A stretch of 64,000 nt of DNA, from assembly GCA_026707285.1 (NCBI GenBank), contig JAPOXD010000041.1, positions 1 to 64,000 of the forward strand. The letters run 5' to 3'. This DNA comes from Chloroflexota bacterium. Its GTDB lineage: Bacteria; Chloroflexota; UBA11872. Positions 27,180 to 38,495 of the stretch are shown one piece after another. Both the position numbers and the translations under genes were made by a program. Position 1 is the stretch's first letter. Each line of letters opens with the position of its first letter. The notes under the pieces are model-generated. The model had not been told where the DNA came from. It did not search any database and saw only the letters and a list, made by a program, of their open reading frames with translations.

Positions 27180-29441
27180 CTAGCGCCAGCGCTCGACGAT
27201 GGCCTTGGTGGTGGCCGCGGCTTCTGACGTCGCCCCGGTCGTGAACGCCTCCGTGATTGCCTCCAGGTAGGGTGCCCGCTGCACGGGAGGGCACGGGACA
27301 TCAATGGTTTCCCGTTCCGGAAAACAACTGCCGTGCAGGTTGGCGTATCTCATGTTGACCAGTTGGGCGAAGCCTTTGTGAAACGACTCCGCATCCAACT
27401 GCTCATATAGCTCAGCAAATATCCGTGGACCAAAATAGTAGTCACAGTACCCTAGCGAATCATCTGCGGCATCACTAATACTCTCAAAGGCGCAGGGCAG
27501 ACGCTCGCCAACTTGGAAATGTGGCGATCCTGACTCAGGTAGCGAATACGCTCCGCGATAGCCGAGCCCGTATTCAACAACCGTGGCCACTCCCTCATCG
27601 ACCAAACGGTCGCCGGTCTGCCAATAGTGCGCAATGATATGGGACAGTATTCTTCGCGTGTCTGTTGTTACGCTTCCATTTCTAATGTATTTATAGTCGA
27701 TCTCAATACTATGGCCTAAGTTATCGCCTCTGCCCAATGCAGCGTCGGTCTTCAAGATCACGTAGCCATGTGGAAATGGGACCTCCACAAACTCGGCTAC
27801 TTCGTGTAAGACGGATTCCAGGATATCCATGGCACTGGGGTCTACGGACTGACTGAGATGATGGATGAAGAACAACTTTACAAAGCCAGTGGACGGAATA
27901 TAGACCGTGCGCTTCTTGACGCCGAAGTCCGGGCTCCAGCCGTTGATCAGGTGAGGGACGTCCCAGGGGGGCGCCAGGAAGTCGCGCAAAGAGGTGCCGA
28001 GATATCGGTAGGCGAGCGCTTGTGCATCGGTAATCCCGCCGGTCGAAAGAAATTCCTGGAGAGCCCTCTGCGTGTGCTGAAGTCCTCCATAGGTGCCGGC
28101 AGGTCTTCCGGGGCGTGCCGTAAATGCAATTTCCTTGGGGAAGTCTTGAATGATATGGGTTTCATAGCCTTCGAAGGTATCCAGGAAGGGCATGTCGAGC
28201 ATCAGGCTGAGGAGCTCGTTGACCTCCTCCGTCTTGCCGAAGTAGGTCGTGCCGGGATGGCGCGGATAGTTGAGCGTGAAATAGAGGAAATGATCGACGA
28301 GCTGCAGCTCATCCCAGGTGACCCCGTCCCGCATCCAGGGCTTCTGCAGGAGCTTTTGGAATGCGGGTGGCCAATCCGCTCGAGGTGTATCGAGTAACAC
28401 TCGCATGATCTGAGGATCGGTTGCGTTGACGTACTTGCGTGTCCAGGGGATGTCGGCGATCGCGAGGAGAATCCCCAGCGCGGCCTCGGACTGAGGATCG
28501 GGTGGCTGGTGCACCCAGACCGTCTGGCGTTCGAACACGAGGCGCGAGTAGAGCTCGGGGGAGGTCGAATAGAGCCTGCGAAGCAGCGCAACGGATTCCC
28601 GATCGCCCGCGGCAATGCCGTCCGCGATCCAGGAGATGGACCGGATGGCAGGTTCTAGCGCGGAGTCTGGGGGATAGGCCGGGATCTTGGCGGCGTCCGG
28701 AATGACGACGTTGCTGAGCTGCTTCAGCTTGTCCGGCACGTTTTGGAGGTTCACCCGGCCCACCGTGATGCCGGCCGCCGGCACGTTCCAGACCACGAAT
28801 ACCGTCCGCTGGGCCCGGAGCATTTGCACGCCTTGCGGGTTGCCCGAGACCTCCAGCTCCGCATAGCGGATCGGCAGCCCGTAGAGGTTCAGCCAATCGG
28901 GCTCGCTGAGGAATCGTCGCTTGATTGCCGGATTCTGATCCAGGATGGCGAGGTGGTTGCGCGTGATGGTGCCGAAATCGGCTCCGCGGTCCGCCTCCAG
29001 CACCTGGTGCGGCGGCACGAATGGAAGCTCCACCTCCGAGTAGCGGTTCGCCAGCGCGTCGAGGGTGTTGTAGAAGTTCATGCGCTGCTTGCCGGAGTCC
29101 CACTGCAGGATGACCTTCTGGAAGGCCTGGAGGGTGAACGGGCCATCGGTCCAGCGCTGGCTGATCGGAAAGCCGATGGCTTGGAGATCCCGGTCGCGGA
29201 CGAAGTCCCACATCGGCACGCCGTTGACGTTGGTGACGGCGTAACCGTCGTCCGGATCGGGCGTGTCGCCGCCAGTGATGGTGAAGAGACAGCCGTCGTC
29301 GAGCGCGTTGCCCTCGCATTCGAGTGCGTAGACGGGCGCCGCCACGGCAAGCGCCACCGCGACGACCACCAGGCCGAGCGCTAGCTTGCGCACGCTGAAT
29401 CTCCAACTAGCCGTGCTCCGGCGGCATTTCGATTGTTCCAT
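27180..29441 (-). CDS. Large secreted protein with GFPIS domain and peptidase-MA-like remnant (paralog 1)
   Basis: About 753 residues. A signal peptide (VRKLALGLVVVAVALAV to VYA) is followed by a domain with GFPISQRWTDGPF and LQAFQKVILQWD, a module I associate with Chloroflexota secreted proteins. The late part has SHIIAHYWQTGDRLVDEGVA then TVVEYGLGY, which recalls HExxH...EGxA of gluzincins (Peptidase MA), but the catalytic Glu is Ile. It is therefore probably non-catalytic. The first 250 residues closely match the gene downstream at 29556; the second half diverges and is visibly more AT-rich. Start ATG 29441. Confidence 0.6.
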   Translation of the reverse strand: MEQSKCRRSTASWRFSVRKLALGLVVVAVALAVAAPVYALECEGNALDDGCLFTITGGDTPDPDDGYAVTNVNGVPMWDFVRDRDLQAIGFPISQRWTDGPFTLQAFQKVILQWDSGKQRMNFYNTLDALANRYSEVELPFVPPHQVLEADRGADFGTITRNHLAILDQNPAIKRRFLSEPDWLNLYGLPIRYAELEVSGNPQGVQMLRAQRTVFVVWNVPAAGITVGRVNLQNVPDKLKQLSNVVIPDAAKIPAYPPDSALEPAIRSISWIADGIAAGDRESVALLRRLYSTSPELYSRLVFERQTVWVHQPPDPQSEAALGILLAIADIPWTRKYVNATDPQIMRVLLDTPRADWPPAFQKLLQKPWMRDGVTWDELQLVDHFLYFTLNYPRHPGTTYFGKTEEVNELLSLMLDMPFLDTFEGYETHIIQDFPKEIAFTARPGRPAGTYGGLQHTQRALQEFLSTGGITDAQALAYRYLGTSLRDFLAPPWDVPHLINGWSPDFGVKKRTVYIPSTGFVKLFFIHHLSQSVDPSAMDILESVLHEVAEFVEVPFPHGYVILKTDAALGRGDNLGHSIEIDYKYIRNGSVTTDTRRILSHIIAHYWQTGDRLVDEGVATVVEYGLGYRGAYSLPESGSPHFQVGERLPCAFESISDAADDSLGYCDYYFGPRIFAELYEQLDAESFHKGFAQLVNMRYANLHGSCFPERETIDVPCPPVQRAPYLEAITEAFTTGATSEAAATTKAIVERWR

Positions 29442-29555
29442 AGCGAAGCGTTGCGGCGTGTCAATCGGCGGCCGGGGGGAAACCGTCGGGCGCGTGGCGC
29501 TCTCGCCGGCGTACTGCGTGGCCGTGCCCACCGCGACTCAGGACGCTCCAAGCCC

Positions 29556-31790
29556 CTAGCGGCCGTGGTACCACCGTTGAATCACGGCCCTGGCGATGGC
29601 TGCGGCTTCAGGTGTCACGCCGGTCGTAAACGCGTCGGTCAGCGCCGTCTCAAAGGACGGTCGCTCCGTATATACGCAAGGAATGTCGAGAATCCTATTC
29701 TGCGCCCAACATAAGCTATAGAGAGGAATCCAGCCATTCGTGTTGGCAATCATCCTGGCCAATCCATTGCGAAACGATGCAGTATCCAATGATCGATATA
29801 GGTCGAGAAAGAAGCTTACGCCAAGATACTCATGACAGCTGGCATCGCCGAGGGCGAACTGATTGCTGACGGTATTGACTGGGCACTGGACGTTGTCACC
29901 AGGATCTTGAAATTCACTAAGGCCAGGATTCCAATGTGCGGGGCGATACCCCATGCCCAACTCAACGACCGCAGCCATCCCCTCGGTTGCCCAATATGGC
30001 ACTTCGTACCCATTGTGATAGGCGATAAAACGTCGGACCAGTTGTCTTCGCGCCTCTCGGATTTCAGGAGCGGAGCCAGGGACGATATAATCGTTGAAGC
30101 TTACATAGTGCCCGGGAAACGGTACCTGAGTAAACGCAACCAGTTCATTTAGAACGCTTTCGATGGTTCCTATCGTATGAGAGATGGCCGTCGGGCTGGC
30201 GACAATGTCCTGGCGATTGATGAGAACGATGCGTACGCGGCCGGATAGCGGGAGAAAGATGTCCTTTTCAATAACTGAAGACTCGCTCGCCCTGTGGCTA
30301 ACGGCTGCGCCAAATTCCTCTGGCTCCCCGTGGAAATCTCGAGGTCTTGGGAACAGCGCCTGACGATCCGTGATGCCACCGGTGGCGGCGAAGCCGCGGA
30401 GCATCCGCATGACGAGATCCGGGCCATGAAGCCATTCGCTGGCTCCAGTGCGTGGATTTGTGCGGCTATAGCCGAAAAAGAGATTTTCGGTAATGGTAGT
30501 TTCATAGCCTTCGAAGCTGTCCAGATAAGGCATATCGAGCATGATGCTAAGAATGTTATCGAGCTCAGCGAGTTTGCCGTTGTATTGCGGGTTGTTTGCC
30601 TCGGCAAGCACGAGGGTTTGCCTGAGCGCGATTTCGGCAAATCTCAGTTCGCCCCAGGTGACGCCGTCGCGAATCCAGGGCTTATGCATCAGCTTGCGGA
30701 ACGACGCGGGCCATTGGTCTTCGGTAGCGTTGAGCAAGACACTGAGGAGGAGTGGCTGTGCGGGGCCTATATGCTTTCGAGTCCAGGGGATTTCGGCGAA
30801 TGCGCTGATCATGCGCAGGGCGCCTTGGCCTTGGGCGCCGGGCAGGCGTTGGAGCCAGTCGGGCTGCCGCGTGACGAGGAGCCTGGTGAGGAGCTCGTCG
30901 GAGGATGAGCCGAGCTTGCGGAGCAGCAGGAGGGTTTCCTGTTCGTGCGGGAGGATGCCGTCGGCAACCCATGGAAGGGCTCGGATGGCCGGGTGCAGGC
31001 CGGGATCGGGGGCGCTGACGAGGCCCTTCGCGGTGTCTGGAATGACGACGTTGCTCAGCTGCTTCAGCTTGTCGGGCACGTTTTGGAGATTCACGCGGCC
31101 GACGGTGATGCCGGCGGCTGGGACGTTCCAGACCACGAACACTGTCCGCTGGCTCCGCAGCAGTTGCACGCCCGCGGGGTTGCCGTCGACCTCACGTTCC
31201 TCGTAGCGGATCGGCAGCCCGTAGAGGTTGAGCCAGTCGGGCTCGCTGAGGAACCGTTCCTTGATGGCCTCGTTTTGGTCGAGCAGCGCCAGGTGGTTCC
31301 GGATGATCGTGCCGAAGGTCGCCCCCTGGTCCTCCTCCAGGACCTGATGGGGTGGCACGAAGGGTAGTTCGACCCACGGAAAGCGGTTCGCCAGCGCGTC
31401 CAGGGTGTTGTAGTAGTTCATGCGCTGCTTGATGGGGTCCCACTGCAGGATGACCTTTTGGAAGGCCTGCAGCGTGAACGGCCCCTCGGTCCAGCGCTGG
31501 CTGATGGGAAAGCCGATGGCCTGGGCCTCCCGGTCGCGGACGAAGTCCCACATGGGCACGCTGTGGGCATTGGTGACGGCGTAGCCGTCGTCCGGATCGG
31601 TCGTGTCTCCCCCGGTGATCGTGAAGAAGCAGCCGTCGTCAAGGTCGAATCCCTCGCAATCGAGGGCATAGGCTGGGGAGGCCACGGCGCAGATCACCGC
31701 AGCGACGACCAGGCCGACCGCTAGCTTCCGCACCCTGCCCCCGACCACACGCCCGCTTCGGGGCGAACCGGTTGTTCTATACCGGTGCAT
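29556..31790 (-). CDS. Large secreted protein, paralog 2 of the tandem pair
   Basis: 744 residues with a signal peptide ending AYA. The N-terminal third is nearly the same as in the neighbour: GFPISQRWTEGPF and the shared run VVWNVPAAGITVGRVNLQN. The C-terminal part keeps only traces of a gluzincin site: RRFIAYHNGYEVPYWATEGM then AAVVELGMGYR, so HExxH is gone while the EGM/Glu end remains. The gene order is upstream paralog 2, then paralog 1, same strand, 114 bases apart. It may be a surface or envelope protein; no function is known to me. The 3' part is AT-richer than its neighbours. Confidence 0.6.
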   Translation of the reverse strand: MHRYRTTGSPRSGRVVGGRVRKLAVGLVVAAVICAVASPAYALDCEGFDLDDGCFFTITGGDTTDPDDGYAVTNAHSVPMWDFVRDREAQAIGFPISQRWTEGPFTLQAFQKVILQWDPIKQRMNYYNTLDALANRFPWVELPFVPPHQVLEEDQGATFGTIIRNHLALLDQNEAIKERFLSEPDWLNLYGLPIRYEEREVDGNPAGVQLLRSQRTVFVVWNVPAAGITVGRVNLQNVPDKLKQLSNVVIPDTAKGLVSAPDPGLHPAIRALPWVADGILPHEQETLLLLRKLGSSSDELLTRLLVTRQPDWLQRLPGAQGQGALRMISAFAEIPWTRKHIGPAQPLLLSVLLNATEDQWPASFRKLMHKPWIRDGVTWGELRFAEIALRQTLVLAEANNPQYNGKLAELDNILSIMLDMPYLDSFEGYETTITENLFFGYSRTNPRTGASEWLHGPDLVMRMLRGFAATGGITDRQALFPRPRDFHGEPEEFGAAVSHRASESSVIEKDIFLPLSGRVRIVLINRQDIVASPTAISHTIGTIESVLNELVAFTQVPFPGHYVSFNDYIVPGSAPEIREARRQLVRRFIAYHNGYEVPYWATEGMAAVVELGMGYRPAHWNPGLSEFQDPGDNVQCPVNTVSNQFALGDASCHEYLGVSFFLDLYRSLDTASFRNGLARMIANTNGWIPLYSLCWAQNRILDIPCVYTERPSFETALTDAFTTGVTPEAAAIARAVIQRWYHGR

Positions 31791-33463: not shown

Positions 33464-35302
33464 GTGAAAGTCCGGCAAACAGCGACGTCCCTGGCGAAGG
33501 TTGAGGCGGAACGCCACGTGCCCTCCGCAATAAACCTGCCACCGGATAACCGATTGCTGGGCCGTGGTGTCCTGCTGGTCGTTTGCGCCTGCTCGATATT
33601 CCTTGCCCTGGTCCTGGCGACGGCCTGCGGCGGCCTGGAGACCTCGCCGGAAACCGACCGGGCGGCGCTGACCCTGCTGTACCAGGCCACCGACGGACCC
33701 AACTGGATCCGCCGCGCCAATTGGCTCACCGACGCGCCCTTGGACCAGTGGGAGGGCGTGACCACCGACGAGAACGGCCGGGTCATCGGCTTGGACCTCT
33801 ACCGCAACAACGTCTCCGGCGTCATACCGACGGACGTGGGCAACCTGGACAAGCTCCAGGTTTTCAACGTGGCCAATACCAGCGATCACCTTGTGTCGGA
33901 CGTGGCCGAAATCATTGTCGGGTTTGCAAGTCTTCTGGAGCTGGTTCTCACCGGAGACACAACGCTAAACACCAGGAATCCGCCCGAATACAACGATTTG
34001 TACGGGTGCCTTCCAAGCCGTCTGCAAGGGCAGTTGGACAGCGAGCGGTCCAACCTGGGTGGGCGAGGATTCTGTGACGGGGCGAACGAGGCGGTCAACA
34101 CGAACACGCTGGCCCTCGAATACGCCGTCCTTAAGGGAGACGTTGCGGCGGTGCAGCGTCTCGTTCGCGACGGAGCTGATGTTGCCTGCATCAATGACTC
34201 GGGCCCCACGGCGCTTCACGCAGCAGTCGCGCAAGGGAACGTTGAGATCACTCGAGTGTTGGCGGAGCAATGCGCGGAGGATCTGGACGACGCGAGCAGC
34301 GGCGCCCTCTACGAGCTTGCCCTCGACCGCCGTACACCCGTGATTGTCCAGGTCCTGCTGGATGCCGGCGTCGACTTCCCCTGCACCAGTGATTCGGACC
34401 CCACGCTGCTTCACGTCGCGGTCGCGGATGAGCACGTTGAATTGGCGCGAACGGTCGCGGAGCAATGTTCGGAGCTCTTGAACACTGTGAGCACGAGCTA
34501 CTTCGACGAGCAGACGCCCTTGAGCCTGGCGATCGAACGCGGCAACCAGGAGCTGGTCCGAATCCTCATCGAGGCGGGCGCGGACCCCAACGTGCGAGTC
34601 CTACCTGACTATGAGGTTGGTTCCCATCTGGCATATGCCGTCGAGGAAGGCGACGCGGCCATCGTGACGCTTCTCCTAGAGGCGGGCGCGGACCCCAATG
34701 TCTCAGACGCTGATTTGGGAGCGCCGGGTTATCGGGAAACGCCGCTCGCTCGGGCCTATCACAACGACCGGGCGGATCTGGTGCGAATGCTCGTTGACGC
34801 AGGCGCGGACCTTGGCGCCACGGGCAACGCCATGCTCTCGGCGGCGATCATCAACGGAAAGGCCGAGATGGTGAGCGCATTGGTCGAGGTTGGGGTGGAA
34901 GTCAGCGGACGAGACGCCAGGGGTCGATCCATGCTCGAACGGGCCATGGTGAGGGGCAGCGCTGAAATCGTCGCAACATTGGTGGAGGCAGGCGCGGACC
35001 CGAATGCAACCGATGCCGATGGCGAGCACATTCTCTTCGACGCAATCTTGCACGGCGGCGCTGAAATCGTGGGGATACTGGTCGACGCAGGCGCGGACGC
35101 GAATGCGACCGATGCCGTTGGAGAGCCTGTTCTCTTCTATGCGCTCCTGCTCGGCAGTGCTGAAACCGTGGAGGTATTGGTGGATGCCGGCGCGGACGTA
35201 AACGCAAGGGACAAGAACGGTCGTTCCGTGCTCGGCAGGGCCAGGCTGTTCAACGATCCCGAAGTGATCAGCATTCTCGTCAATGCCGGAGCGAAGGAAT
35301 GA
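33464..35302 (+). CDS. Lipoprotein with LRR-type head and ankyrin repeats
   Basis: 612 residues. A hydrophobic stretch ends with a lipobox (LALVLATACGG, Cys55), so it is anchored outside the membrane. The next 100 residues are an LRR N-cap with one or two degenerate repeats (LLYQATDGPNWIRRANWL, WEGVTTDENGRVIGLDLYRN), as in the LRR protein at 41866. From about residue 215 there are about 11-12 ankyrin repeats (for example ALEYAVLKGDVAAVQRLVRD, LVDAGADLGA, LVEAGADPNA). Ankyrin arrays bind proteins. The joining of an LRR head to ankyrin repeats is unusual. Confidence 0.85.
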   Translation: MKVRQTATSLAKVEAERHVPSAINLPPDNRLLGRGVLLVVCACSIFLALVLATACGGLETSPETDRAALTLLYQATDGPNWIRRANWLTDAPLDQWEGVTTDENGRVIGLDLYRNNVSGVIPTDVGNLDKLQVFNVANTSDHLVSDVAEIIVGFASLLELVLTGDTTLNTRNPPEYNDLYGCLPSRLQGQLDSERSNLGGRGFCDGANEAVNTNTLALEYAVLKGDVAAVQRLVRDGADVACINDSGPTALHAAVAQGNVEITRVLAEQCAEDLDDASSGALYELALDRRTPVIVQVLLDAGVDFPCTSDSDPTLLHVAVADEHVELARTVAEQCSELLNTVSTSYFDEQTPLSLAIERGNQELVRILIEAGADPNVRVLPDYEVGSHLAYAVEEGDAAIVTLLLEAGADPNVSDADLGAPGYRETPLARAYHNDRADLVRMLVDAGADLGATGNAMLSAAIINGKAEMVSALVEVGVEVSGRDARGRSMLERAMVRGSAEIVATLVEAGADPNATDADGEHILFDAILHGGAEIVGILVDAGADANATDAVGEPVLFYALLLGSAETVEVLVDAGADVNARDKNGRSVLGRARLFNDPEVISILVNAGAKE

Positions 35303-36415: not shown

Positions 36416-37233
36416 TCTCGCTCATCCTCGACACCGACATCGGTGACGACGTGGACGACGCCTTTGCGCTGGCCTTCGCCGCGCGGCACCCGCAAATCCG
36501 CCTGTGCGCCGTGACCACCGTGCTGGGCGACACGCGCTGGCGCGCGGCGCTGACGCTGCGGCTGCTGGACGAGCTGGGCATCGAGGGCATCACGCTCTCC
36601 GGCGATGTGGTGCTGCCGCCAGGGAGTGCCGATCCGCGTTGCGATCCCCGCCCAGCAACCGATCTCATGGCCGACGCGATTGCGGCCGCGCCGGAGCCGG
36701 TCTGGCTCGCAACCATCGGTCCGGCCACCAACGCCGCCGCGCTGCTGGCCGCGCGGCCCAGATCGCTGGACCGCCTGTCCGGGATCGTCATGATGGGCGG
36801 CCGGCACGATCCGTCAAACCCGCGCGAGCACAACTTCGGCGCCGATCCCGCCGCCGCAGCCGCCGTGTGCAACTGCGGCCGGCGCGTGCGCGTGGGCGAC
36901 TACCTCGTCACGTCCCAAGCGCAACTGCGGCGGGACGACCTGGCCCGCGTGCGGCGCGCCCCGGGCATTGGCCGCTCGCTGGGTCTGATGCTCGAAACCT
37001 ACCTGGGCCGGCGCGGCCGCGATTGGACCAGCATGTACGATCCCGCGGCGCTTACTTTGGCGCTCGGCGAGGAGTTTCTGCGACTCGGCCTGACGCCGCG
37101 CCGCGCCGAGGTCGTGGCGGGCCAGGTTCGGTTTCGGGTCGCGAGTGCAGCTACCCATTTGCGCATCGCGGCGGCTATCGACGCCGGGGCCTTTCGTCGC
37201 GGGTTGCTCGATGTCCTCGGCTTGCGCGAATGA
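36412..37233 (+). CDS. Inosine-uridine-type nucleoside hydrolase
   Basis: 273 residues. The calcium-binding signature DTDIGDDVDDAFAL is at residues 7-20; GPATNAAALL, SGIVMMGG and HNFGADPAAA match the family. It hydrolyses ribonucleosides to base plus ribose. The protein is slightly short compared with the usual 310. It starts with GTG at 36412 inside the AlkD stop, and its own stop overlaps the ATG of the nucleotidyltransferase (ATGA at 37230). Confidence 0.85.
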   Translation: MISLILDTDIGDDVDDAFALAFAARHPQIRLCAVTTVLGDTRWRAALTLRLLDELGIEGITLSGDVVLPPGSADPRCDPRPATDLMADAIAAAPEPVWLATIGPATNAAALLAARPRSLDRLSGIVMMGGRHDPSNPREHNFGADPAAAAAVCNCGRRVRVGDYLVTSQAQLRRDDLARVRRAPGIGRSLGLMLETYLGRRGRDWTSMYDPAALTLALGEEFLRLGLTPRRAEVVAGQVRFRVASAATHLRIAAAIDAGAFRRGLLDVLGLRE

Positions 37234-38495
37234 GCTTGCCGACCAGCCCGGATCTGGCGCCCGCCAGCGCGCAATATCAACTCATCGATTCGGCACCTGC
37301 GGTGCTGGCGACGGACTCCAGGGTCGTCGCGGCGTGGATCGGCGGCAGTATCGCCGCGGGGACCGCGGACCGGTGGTCGGACGTGGATTTGCGCCTGGCC
37401 GTCGAGCAACCTGATCTGCCCGGAGTCATCGCCGGCATTCCGGCGACGCTGGCGGCTATCCGTCCGGTGCTGGGATGGTTCGGACGGCCCGTTCGTGGTG
37501 GACATCTCGTCGTCGTCACCTTCGAGGGGCCGCTGCGCGCGGACCTGGAAATCGCGACGCCGGCGTACCTGCGCGGTCCGCGGCACGAGGCGGTGGCGCC
37601 CCTGATCGACCCGGACGGCCAGGTTGCGCGGTTTGCCGGCACTCCCGTCGCACCGCCCCGGCTCACGCCGGCGGAGCTGATCCAGCGCGAGGCGGCGCGG
37701 CTTCCATCTGAGTTGGGACGGTTGCAGCGGGCCATCGAGGAACGCTCCATCCTGTCGGCAACGCAAGCCCAAGCCACGCTACTCGAGTCCGCCCAGCGCC
37801 TGCTTCTGCTGCTGCGCGACCCGCGCGCCGCGGGCCTCGCGGGGCCCAAGCACGCGGCGGACGCGCTGACCGCAGCCGACGTCGAGCCGCTCCTGGCTCC
37901 CCTGCGCGCCTGGAGCGCCGACTGGCCCGATCCGGCGGCTGATTCCATCGACCCGACCCTCGATCTCCTGCGTCCGCTCGTCGCGGAGGTTCAAAACCGA
38001 CACGAAACAACGGTGCCCCTGCATCCAGAGCCGCCCGATCCCGAGGGCGCCGTGGCGGGGTCGAGCCATTTCACCCGATACGCGCCGACGGAAGCTGTTC
38101 AGGCCGCCCACAACCTGCTGGTGCACGCCATGGTCGGCGCCAGTTCCTACAACCGCGGCCTCTACACCGGACTGCTCTGGGGCTATGCCATGGCGGCGCA
38201 ACTGGCCGCCGACCTGGCCCGCGTGCGGCCAGAATCGCCGGAGCTCGCGGTCCAGCTCGCGCCCGCCGACGCGGCTGCATTGGAGTCCGCGCTGCGGCCG
38301 CTGCGGCGCGGGAGCGTCGAGGCCGTCCGCCATGTCGCGGCCAGCGTGGCGGCGTTGTATTCGCGCTACCTCGAACGGGCCTGCGACGCGCTGGGCCTGT
38401 CCTACCAGCGGCGGCTCGACCGCGAGGTCAATTCCTATCTATTCCGCGAAGGTGTGTTCGCCTACGACGTAACCGCCGCCAACCCTGCACCCTGA
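37230..38495 (+). CDS. Nucleotidyltransferase-domain protein
   Basis: 421 residues from ATG 37230. The nucleotidyltransferase signature GGSIAAGTADRWSDVDLRL (GS then DxD) is at about residues 38-56. The rest is helical, Ala/Arg/Leu-rich, and not recognised; it resembles the helical add-ons of kanamycin-type or antitoxin-like nucleotidyltransferases only in outline. It is the last gene of a coupled trio with AlkD and the nucleoside hydrolase. The open frame extends to 36504 but overlaps the hydrolase and is not used. Role unknown. Confidence 0.65.
   Translation: MSLPTSPDLAPASAQYQLIDSAPAVLATDSRVVAAWIGGSIAAGTADRWSDVDLRLAVEQPDLPGVIAGIPATLAAIRPVLGWFGRPVRGGHLVVVTFEGPLRADLEIATPAYLRGPRHEAVAPLIDPDGQVARFAGTPVAPPRLTPAELIQREAARLPSELGRLQRAIEERSILSATQAQATLLESAQRLLLLLRDPRAAGLAGPKHAADALTAADVEPLLAPLRAWSADWPDPAADSIDPTLDLLRPLVAEVQNRHETTVPLHPEPPDPEGAVAGSSHFTRYAPTEAVQAAHNLLVHAMVGASSYNRGLYTGLLWGYAMAAQLAADLARVRPESPELAVQLAPADAAALESALRPLRRGSVEAVRHVAASVAALYSRYLERACDALGLSYQRRLDREVNSYLFREGVFAYDVTAANPAP

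Follow-up and report, generated by a model that had tools for sequence, protein, structure and literature searches.

Many pseudopeptidases are known that bind or regulate (PMC11266112). For Tma108, a homologue of the M1 peptidases, the substrate pocket is reported to serve in the binding of nascent proteins, and pseudometallopeptidases have been documented to regulate their active relatives (PMC11266112). Sponge symbionts encode eukaryote-like repeat proteins (PMC6306507, PMC8163846), the export route of which is unclear, as few lineages have classical secretion systems (PMC8163846). Polymorphic toxins combine a conserved N-terminal part with a variable C-terminal part (PMC3482391).

Here we describe two neighboring genes, P0001 and P0002, from a 64,000-nucleotide window of a Chloroflexota contig (JAPOXD010000041.1), the products of which bear a likeness to each of these systems. 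The predicted fold of the C-terminal domain of P0001 matches the M1/Peptidase MA gluzincins (ERAP1, PepN, Deinococcus M1), and intact relatives carry HExxH..WxxEG. Unlike these enzymes, P0001 and P0002 have no Pfam M1 match and have lost the catalytic residues; in addition, the family has a shorter HExxH-to-Glu spacing, and the helical repeats precede the catalytic domain instead of following it. As in the Tma108-type pseudometallopeptidases, a peptidase fold is kept for a probable non-catalytic role, but P0001 and P0002 are bacterial, exported, and fused to a class-wide head, their metal site is dismantled, and the family shows several independent losses. They probably belong to the same kind of organism as the eukaryote-like repeat proteins, and the same head occurs on LRR and RCC1 tails in paralogs, whereas their own tails are peptidase-derived and match no Pfam repeat family. 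With polymorphic toxins they share the conserved N-terminal and variable C-terminal parts, although no Pfam toxin domain was detected in either protein and the 162 bases separating the two genes, counted from the putative GTG starts, contain no immunity ORF. The host is probably a sponge-dwelling uncultured Chloroflexota, judging from related MAG bins named RHO and COS; these names fit collections of sponge MAGs published for Rhopaloeides and Coscinoderma (PMC8163846).

Gene layout and divergence of the pair

P0001 and P0002 are neighboring minus-strand ORFs (27180–29531 and 29556–31790) predicted to encode tandem Sec-exported paralogs (Table 1). A GTG codon within the motif VRKLA.GL, at 29393 in P0001 and 31733 in P0002, is kept in the relatives inspected and is the likely translation start of each gene. 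Upstream of this codon in P0001, positions 29445–29471 (minus strand) translate to a conserved P.IDTP.RF, also seen in L033 and L034 (three genomes); this stretch could be part of the coding sequence or, alternatively, a conserved leader.

Table 1. Features of the P0001/P0002 pair, in window coordinates.
Feature	Position	Strand	Remarks
Gene 1 (P0001; head, PWxxDG repeats, dead gluzincin domain)	27180..29393	-	737 aa from putative GTG; ORF open to 29531
Signal peptide, gene 1 (MRKLALGLVVVAVALAVAAPVYA)	29325..29393	-	Sec type, without lipobox; layout same in relatives; putative cleavage site
Head module, gene 1	28686..29324	-	~215 aa; two cysteines near start; without Pfam/NCBIfam match
Helical repeat region, gene 1	27921..28685	-	PWxxDG/MPFL motifs
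Catalytic-type gluzincin domain, gene 1 (M1-like fold)	27183..27920	-	Predicted structure and Foldseek
HIIAH, degenerate HExxH, gene 1	27627..27641	-	Ile for catalytic Glu; both His kept; same in G003 relative L033
DEGVA, third-zinc-ligand position, gene 1	27585..27599	-	Glu kept
Gene 2 (P0002)	29556..31733	-	725 aa from putative GTG; ORF open to 31790
Signal peptide, gene 2	31665..31733	-	Putative cleavage site
Head module, gene 2	31026..31664	-	85% identical to gene 1 head
Helical repeat region, gene 2	30276..31025	-	By alignment to gene 1
Catalytic-type domain, gene 2	29559..30275	-	By alignment to gene 1
RFIAY, HExxH wholly lost, gene 2	30018..30032	-	Same in G003 relative L047
TEGMA, third-ligand motif present, gene 2	29973..29987	-	Sequence

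The initial annotation, made from the sequence alone, had described the pair as tandem ORFs with a conserved start of 250 residues, a diverged and more AT-rich 3' half, and broken metallopeptidase motifs. Our comparison agrees with this description, except that the conserved head, which is real, extends over about 215 mature residues plus the signal peptide. The mature heads are 85% identical at the protein level (dS 0.61, dN 0.10) and the tails 39% (dS 1.8, dN 0.59). Along each gene, GC content falls from about 0.65 to 0.53, and GC3 falls from 0.88 in both heads to 0.67 and 0.64 in the tails of P0001 and P0002, respectively. Composition and dS are both uneven between head and tail, and divergence is not even along the length. 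In the majority of the pairs, whether intact or dead, dS climbs from the head through the repeat region to the catalytic domain as GC3 drops.

The head module

With P0001 as the query, a search of its own genome (3.2 Mb, 61 contigs) returned 16 places, mostly heads with unrelated tails. About a dozen proteins of this genome carry the head on many tail types, an outcome in line with the further paralogs that the initial annotation had proposed to look for. Tails assigned by Pfam are RCC1, LRR, M23, GSDH, and beta-lactamase, with the head at the C-terminus in the GSDH protein; one further tail has a sub-cutoff match to DUF6782, a putative metallopeptidase family, and two glycosidase-like tails and one CAP-like tail were recognized by inspection. 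Heads were found in 41 of the 41 class genomes searched, with up to 21 matches per genome, and in 71 of 400 genomes of a phylum-wide draw, 41 of the 71 belonging to the same class. The head is a module reused on many different exported proteins across the class, and this context suggests that it retains the protein at the cell surface or targets it.

Inspection of related Chloroflexota MAGs disclosed tails with DGFDTTANTD repeats, a TolB-like propeller, and a LamG-like domain. Seven proteins (L087, L088, L089, L091, L093, L094, L095) have the head followed by tandem DGFDTTANTDxD repeats, which resemble calcium-binding thrombospondin type 3 repeats, and form one clade on the head tree. Three heads (G003:C9:68652-69308, G004:C25:216861-217517, and G190:C113:2932-3549) lie inside very long open frames (2046, 4635 residues).

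No Pfam or NCBIfam model matched the head, including the 24 heads of alignment A4. AlphaFold predictions of the head, within full-length P0001 and alone (46 sequences), were poor (mean pLDDT < 60), and Foldseek found no structural match for the predicted head. Visual inspection of the head shows two copies of the motif G.P....G.F..Q.F....W, reminiscent of the LGFP repeat (PF08310); we rejected this assignment, as PF08310 matched neither any head locus in P0001's genome nor any of the 24 A4 heads. The sole match to PDB profiles, to galactonolactone dehydrogenase, was short (E 0.007) and was taken as chance.

Fold and active site of the tail

The tail consists of two parts, an array of helical "PWxxDG" repeats and, after it, a catalytic-type domain, and the number of PWxxDG/MPFL motifs differs among relatives. 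An AlphaFold model of P0001 from a 30-sequence alignment was usable across the tail, with pLDDT mostly 70–95. A Foldseek comparison of this tail with the PDB placed M1 peptidases at the top: Deinococcus M1 (E 1.4e-5, probability 1.0), followed by ERAP1 and PepN. The model thus supports an M1-like gluzincin fold for the C-terminal domain of P0001, as the initial annotation had suggested checking by structure prediction. At the sequence level, no Pfam peptidase family matched P0001 or P0002, M1 being absent even at E 1; some relatives gave weak matches (BSP 9e-4, M1 1.2e-3). No Pfam match to LRR, ankyrin, TPR, HEAT, or WD40 repeats was found in either tail.

HExxH with its catalytic Glu is absent from both proteins, reading HIIAH in P0001 and RFIAY in P0002, and the EG motif of the third ligand is kept (DEGVA and TEGMA, respectively). 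P0001 retains His, His, and Glu, all three candidate zinc ligands, which P0002 does not; P0001 may therefore still bind some metal or have an unusual chemistry. The same genome also encodes intact relatives, one with the head (C20:36860-39760, HESAH...WLAEG) and one without it (C46:2479-4224, HELGH...WIGEG). A relationship of the C46 protein to TAL effectors was suggested by weak summed matches with no single significant stretch, which we took as chance.

Loss of the active site and selection on the dead tails

Relatives were found in the taxonomic family to which P0001's genome belongs and in a second family of the same class; the rest of the phylum gave a single weak one. All four tails examined from the other family (L144–L147) are intact and lack a P0001-type head; the intact active site is therefore ancestral. 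A tail tree built leaving out the motif columns groups P0001 and P0002 with seven further dead tails in one nine-member clade spanning two genera (bootstrap/SH-aLRT 99–100). On this tree, P0001 and P0002 descend from one dead ancestor. Over the whole tree, parsimony counts four losses, and the best supported branches force a minimum of two. Among the nine dead tails, the former metal site reads HIIAH, RFIAY, NLIAH, HLIAH, NLIAR, YLLSD, or NALAG, giving a freely varying pattern of [HRNY][IFLA][IL][AS][HYRDG] at the old HExxH. The independent genome G003 has the same pair in the same place with identical lesions (HIIAH in L033, RFIAY in L047).

Between P0001/P0002 and the G003 pair, dN/dS was 0.11–0.21 in the dead tails and 0.05–0.14 in the heads; tails of intact relatives gave 0.12–0.45. 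Because their dN/dS is this low, the tails of P0001 and P0002 are not pseudogenes, and the substitution rates indicate that purifying selection acts on the dead tails. Of the fully conserved columns of the dead clade, 27 lie in the repeats and 19 in the catalytic domain, compared with 15 and 49 in intact tails (Fisher p 0.0003), a difference to which repeat-number variation among the intact relatives may contribute by depressing their repeat identity. At the codon level, the shift of constraint toward the repeats in dead tails is weak, partly because dS also climbs toward the 3' end. We treat the conserved-column shift to the repeats as supporting evidence only.

The genomic slot

The slot of P0001 and P0002 is flanked by a TPP enzyme and a solute-binding protein. 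The same slot is found in other species of the genus; in G001, the contig stops just beyond the pair. Compared with G001 and G002, the slot genes have dS of 0.5–0.8 in the head and > 1.0 in the tail, and the flanks 0.21–0.46. Since the slot genes are far more diverged than their flanks, the slot is held by divergent versions or old paralogs, as at a variable surface-protein locus.

Elsewhere in the window, 33464–35302 (plus strand) encodes an ankyrin-repeat protein opening with the same TDGPNW...LTDAPL unit that the LRR tails have. It has no counterpart in the matching interval of G003, G002, and G001 and looks like a lineage-specific insertion. A 663-residue ORF at 36504–38495 (plus strand), without a Pfam match, diverges fast, with dN/dS of 0.37–0.51 against G001 and G002; in G003, it is only partly alignable, with dN > dS.

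Discussion

The catalytic residues are lost and the protein is nevertheless maintained, and binding is therefore the most economical reading. We propose, with a probability of about 0.6, that P0001 and P0002 are modular exported pseudopeptidases that bind rather than cut. Of the modular, binding surface proteins envisaged in the initial annotation, the modularity, the export, and the loss of catalytic residues stand; the surface location and the binding we infer. The Sec signal leads a head of about 215 residues, a class-wide module that presents or targets unrelated exported domains, probably by anchoring them. After the head come the helical repeat array and an M1-like gluzincin domain descended from an active secreted peptidase, the catalytic Glu having been lost before the two genera split. 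The zinc site then decayed differently in each copy, with the rest of the protein held under purifying selection. Non-catalytic binding would fall to the repeats and the former substrate cleft, the proposed ligands being peptides or proteins of the sponge matrix, of neighboring cells, or of phages, or else active sister peptidases. Variants presumably turn over at the fixed locus, and a role in the recognition of host, neighbor, or phage is suggested.

Several alternatives were considered. The proteins could be regulatory pseudoenzymes that pair or compete with the intact sister peptidases of the C20 and C46 loci and so tune activity or substrate supply. A single genome does encode both intact and dead relatives, alike in signal peptide and tail layout, and such a role has precedent (PMC11266112). 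However, every near-full-length tail found in G001, G002, G009, G011, and G015 has lost the motif, and the tails of P0001 and P0002 are only 22–24% identical to the intact ones of the same genome, which makes this reading unlikely. The proteins might instead have remained enzymes by rearranging the active site, P0001 for instance using another base; the three ligand positions kept in P0001, in the G003 relative of P0001, and in L048 would fit. At least one ligand is missing from P0002 and from other members of the clade, though, and a conserved new active site would not be expected to vary so freely at these positions; we give this reading little credence. Broken catalytic motifs might also mark decaying pseudogenes or assembly artefacts, which is hardly believable given full-length frames, signal peptides, lesions repeated identically in G003, the low dN/dS, and a dead state common to two genera.

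A further possibility, implied by the remark in the initial annotation that the AT-rich tail looks swapped in, is that a foreign tail was recently joined to a resident head by horizontal transfer. The sharp GC3 step at the junction, the higher dS of the tail, and the conflict between head and tail trees at L039/L040 would agree with such an event. Yet every gluzincin tail sampled, intact or dead, in two genera has a GC3 of 0.53–0.73, below that of its own head (0.73–0.94), and none has been ameliorated; the step is therefore old. Informative sites in the G000–G003 quartet favor vertical orthology (79 in the head, 496 in the tail) over within-genome exchange (0 and 6). With these data and the shared dead ancestor of P0001 and P0002, a recent swap is rather improbable, and that claim is not upheld. 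Gene conversion as the source of the similar heads was likewise rejected, with 0 supporting head sites in the quartet. At greater depth, the heads of dead-tail proteins are not one clade, and the head tree conflicts with that of the tails (AU p=0.0002); the L037 tail carries another N-terminus, and the C46 tail lacks a head. The trees thus support head-tail reshuffling at depth only, not recently.

Building on the reading of P0001 and P0002 as pseudopeptidases that bind, we offer a tentative and still doubtful extension. The dead tails may be diversifying peptide- or protein-binding receptors at a fixed locus, shown on a class-wide export and display module with interchangeable tails (LRR, RCC1, glycosidases, and intact and dead peptidases) in sponge-associated Chloroflexota, a recognition repertoire made from a retired protease.

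The principle of the pseudopeptidase is already known; what is new is its setting in bacterial, exported, and modular proteins in which it evolved repeatedly. A Sec-exported head on LRR, RCC1, enzyme, and pseudoenzyme tails would be a concrete and testable answer to the question of export for one bacterial class, and a peptidase site that was lost several times, in a protein that is kept, may provide a natural series for the passage from an enzyme to a binding protein.
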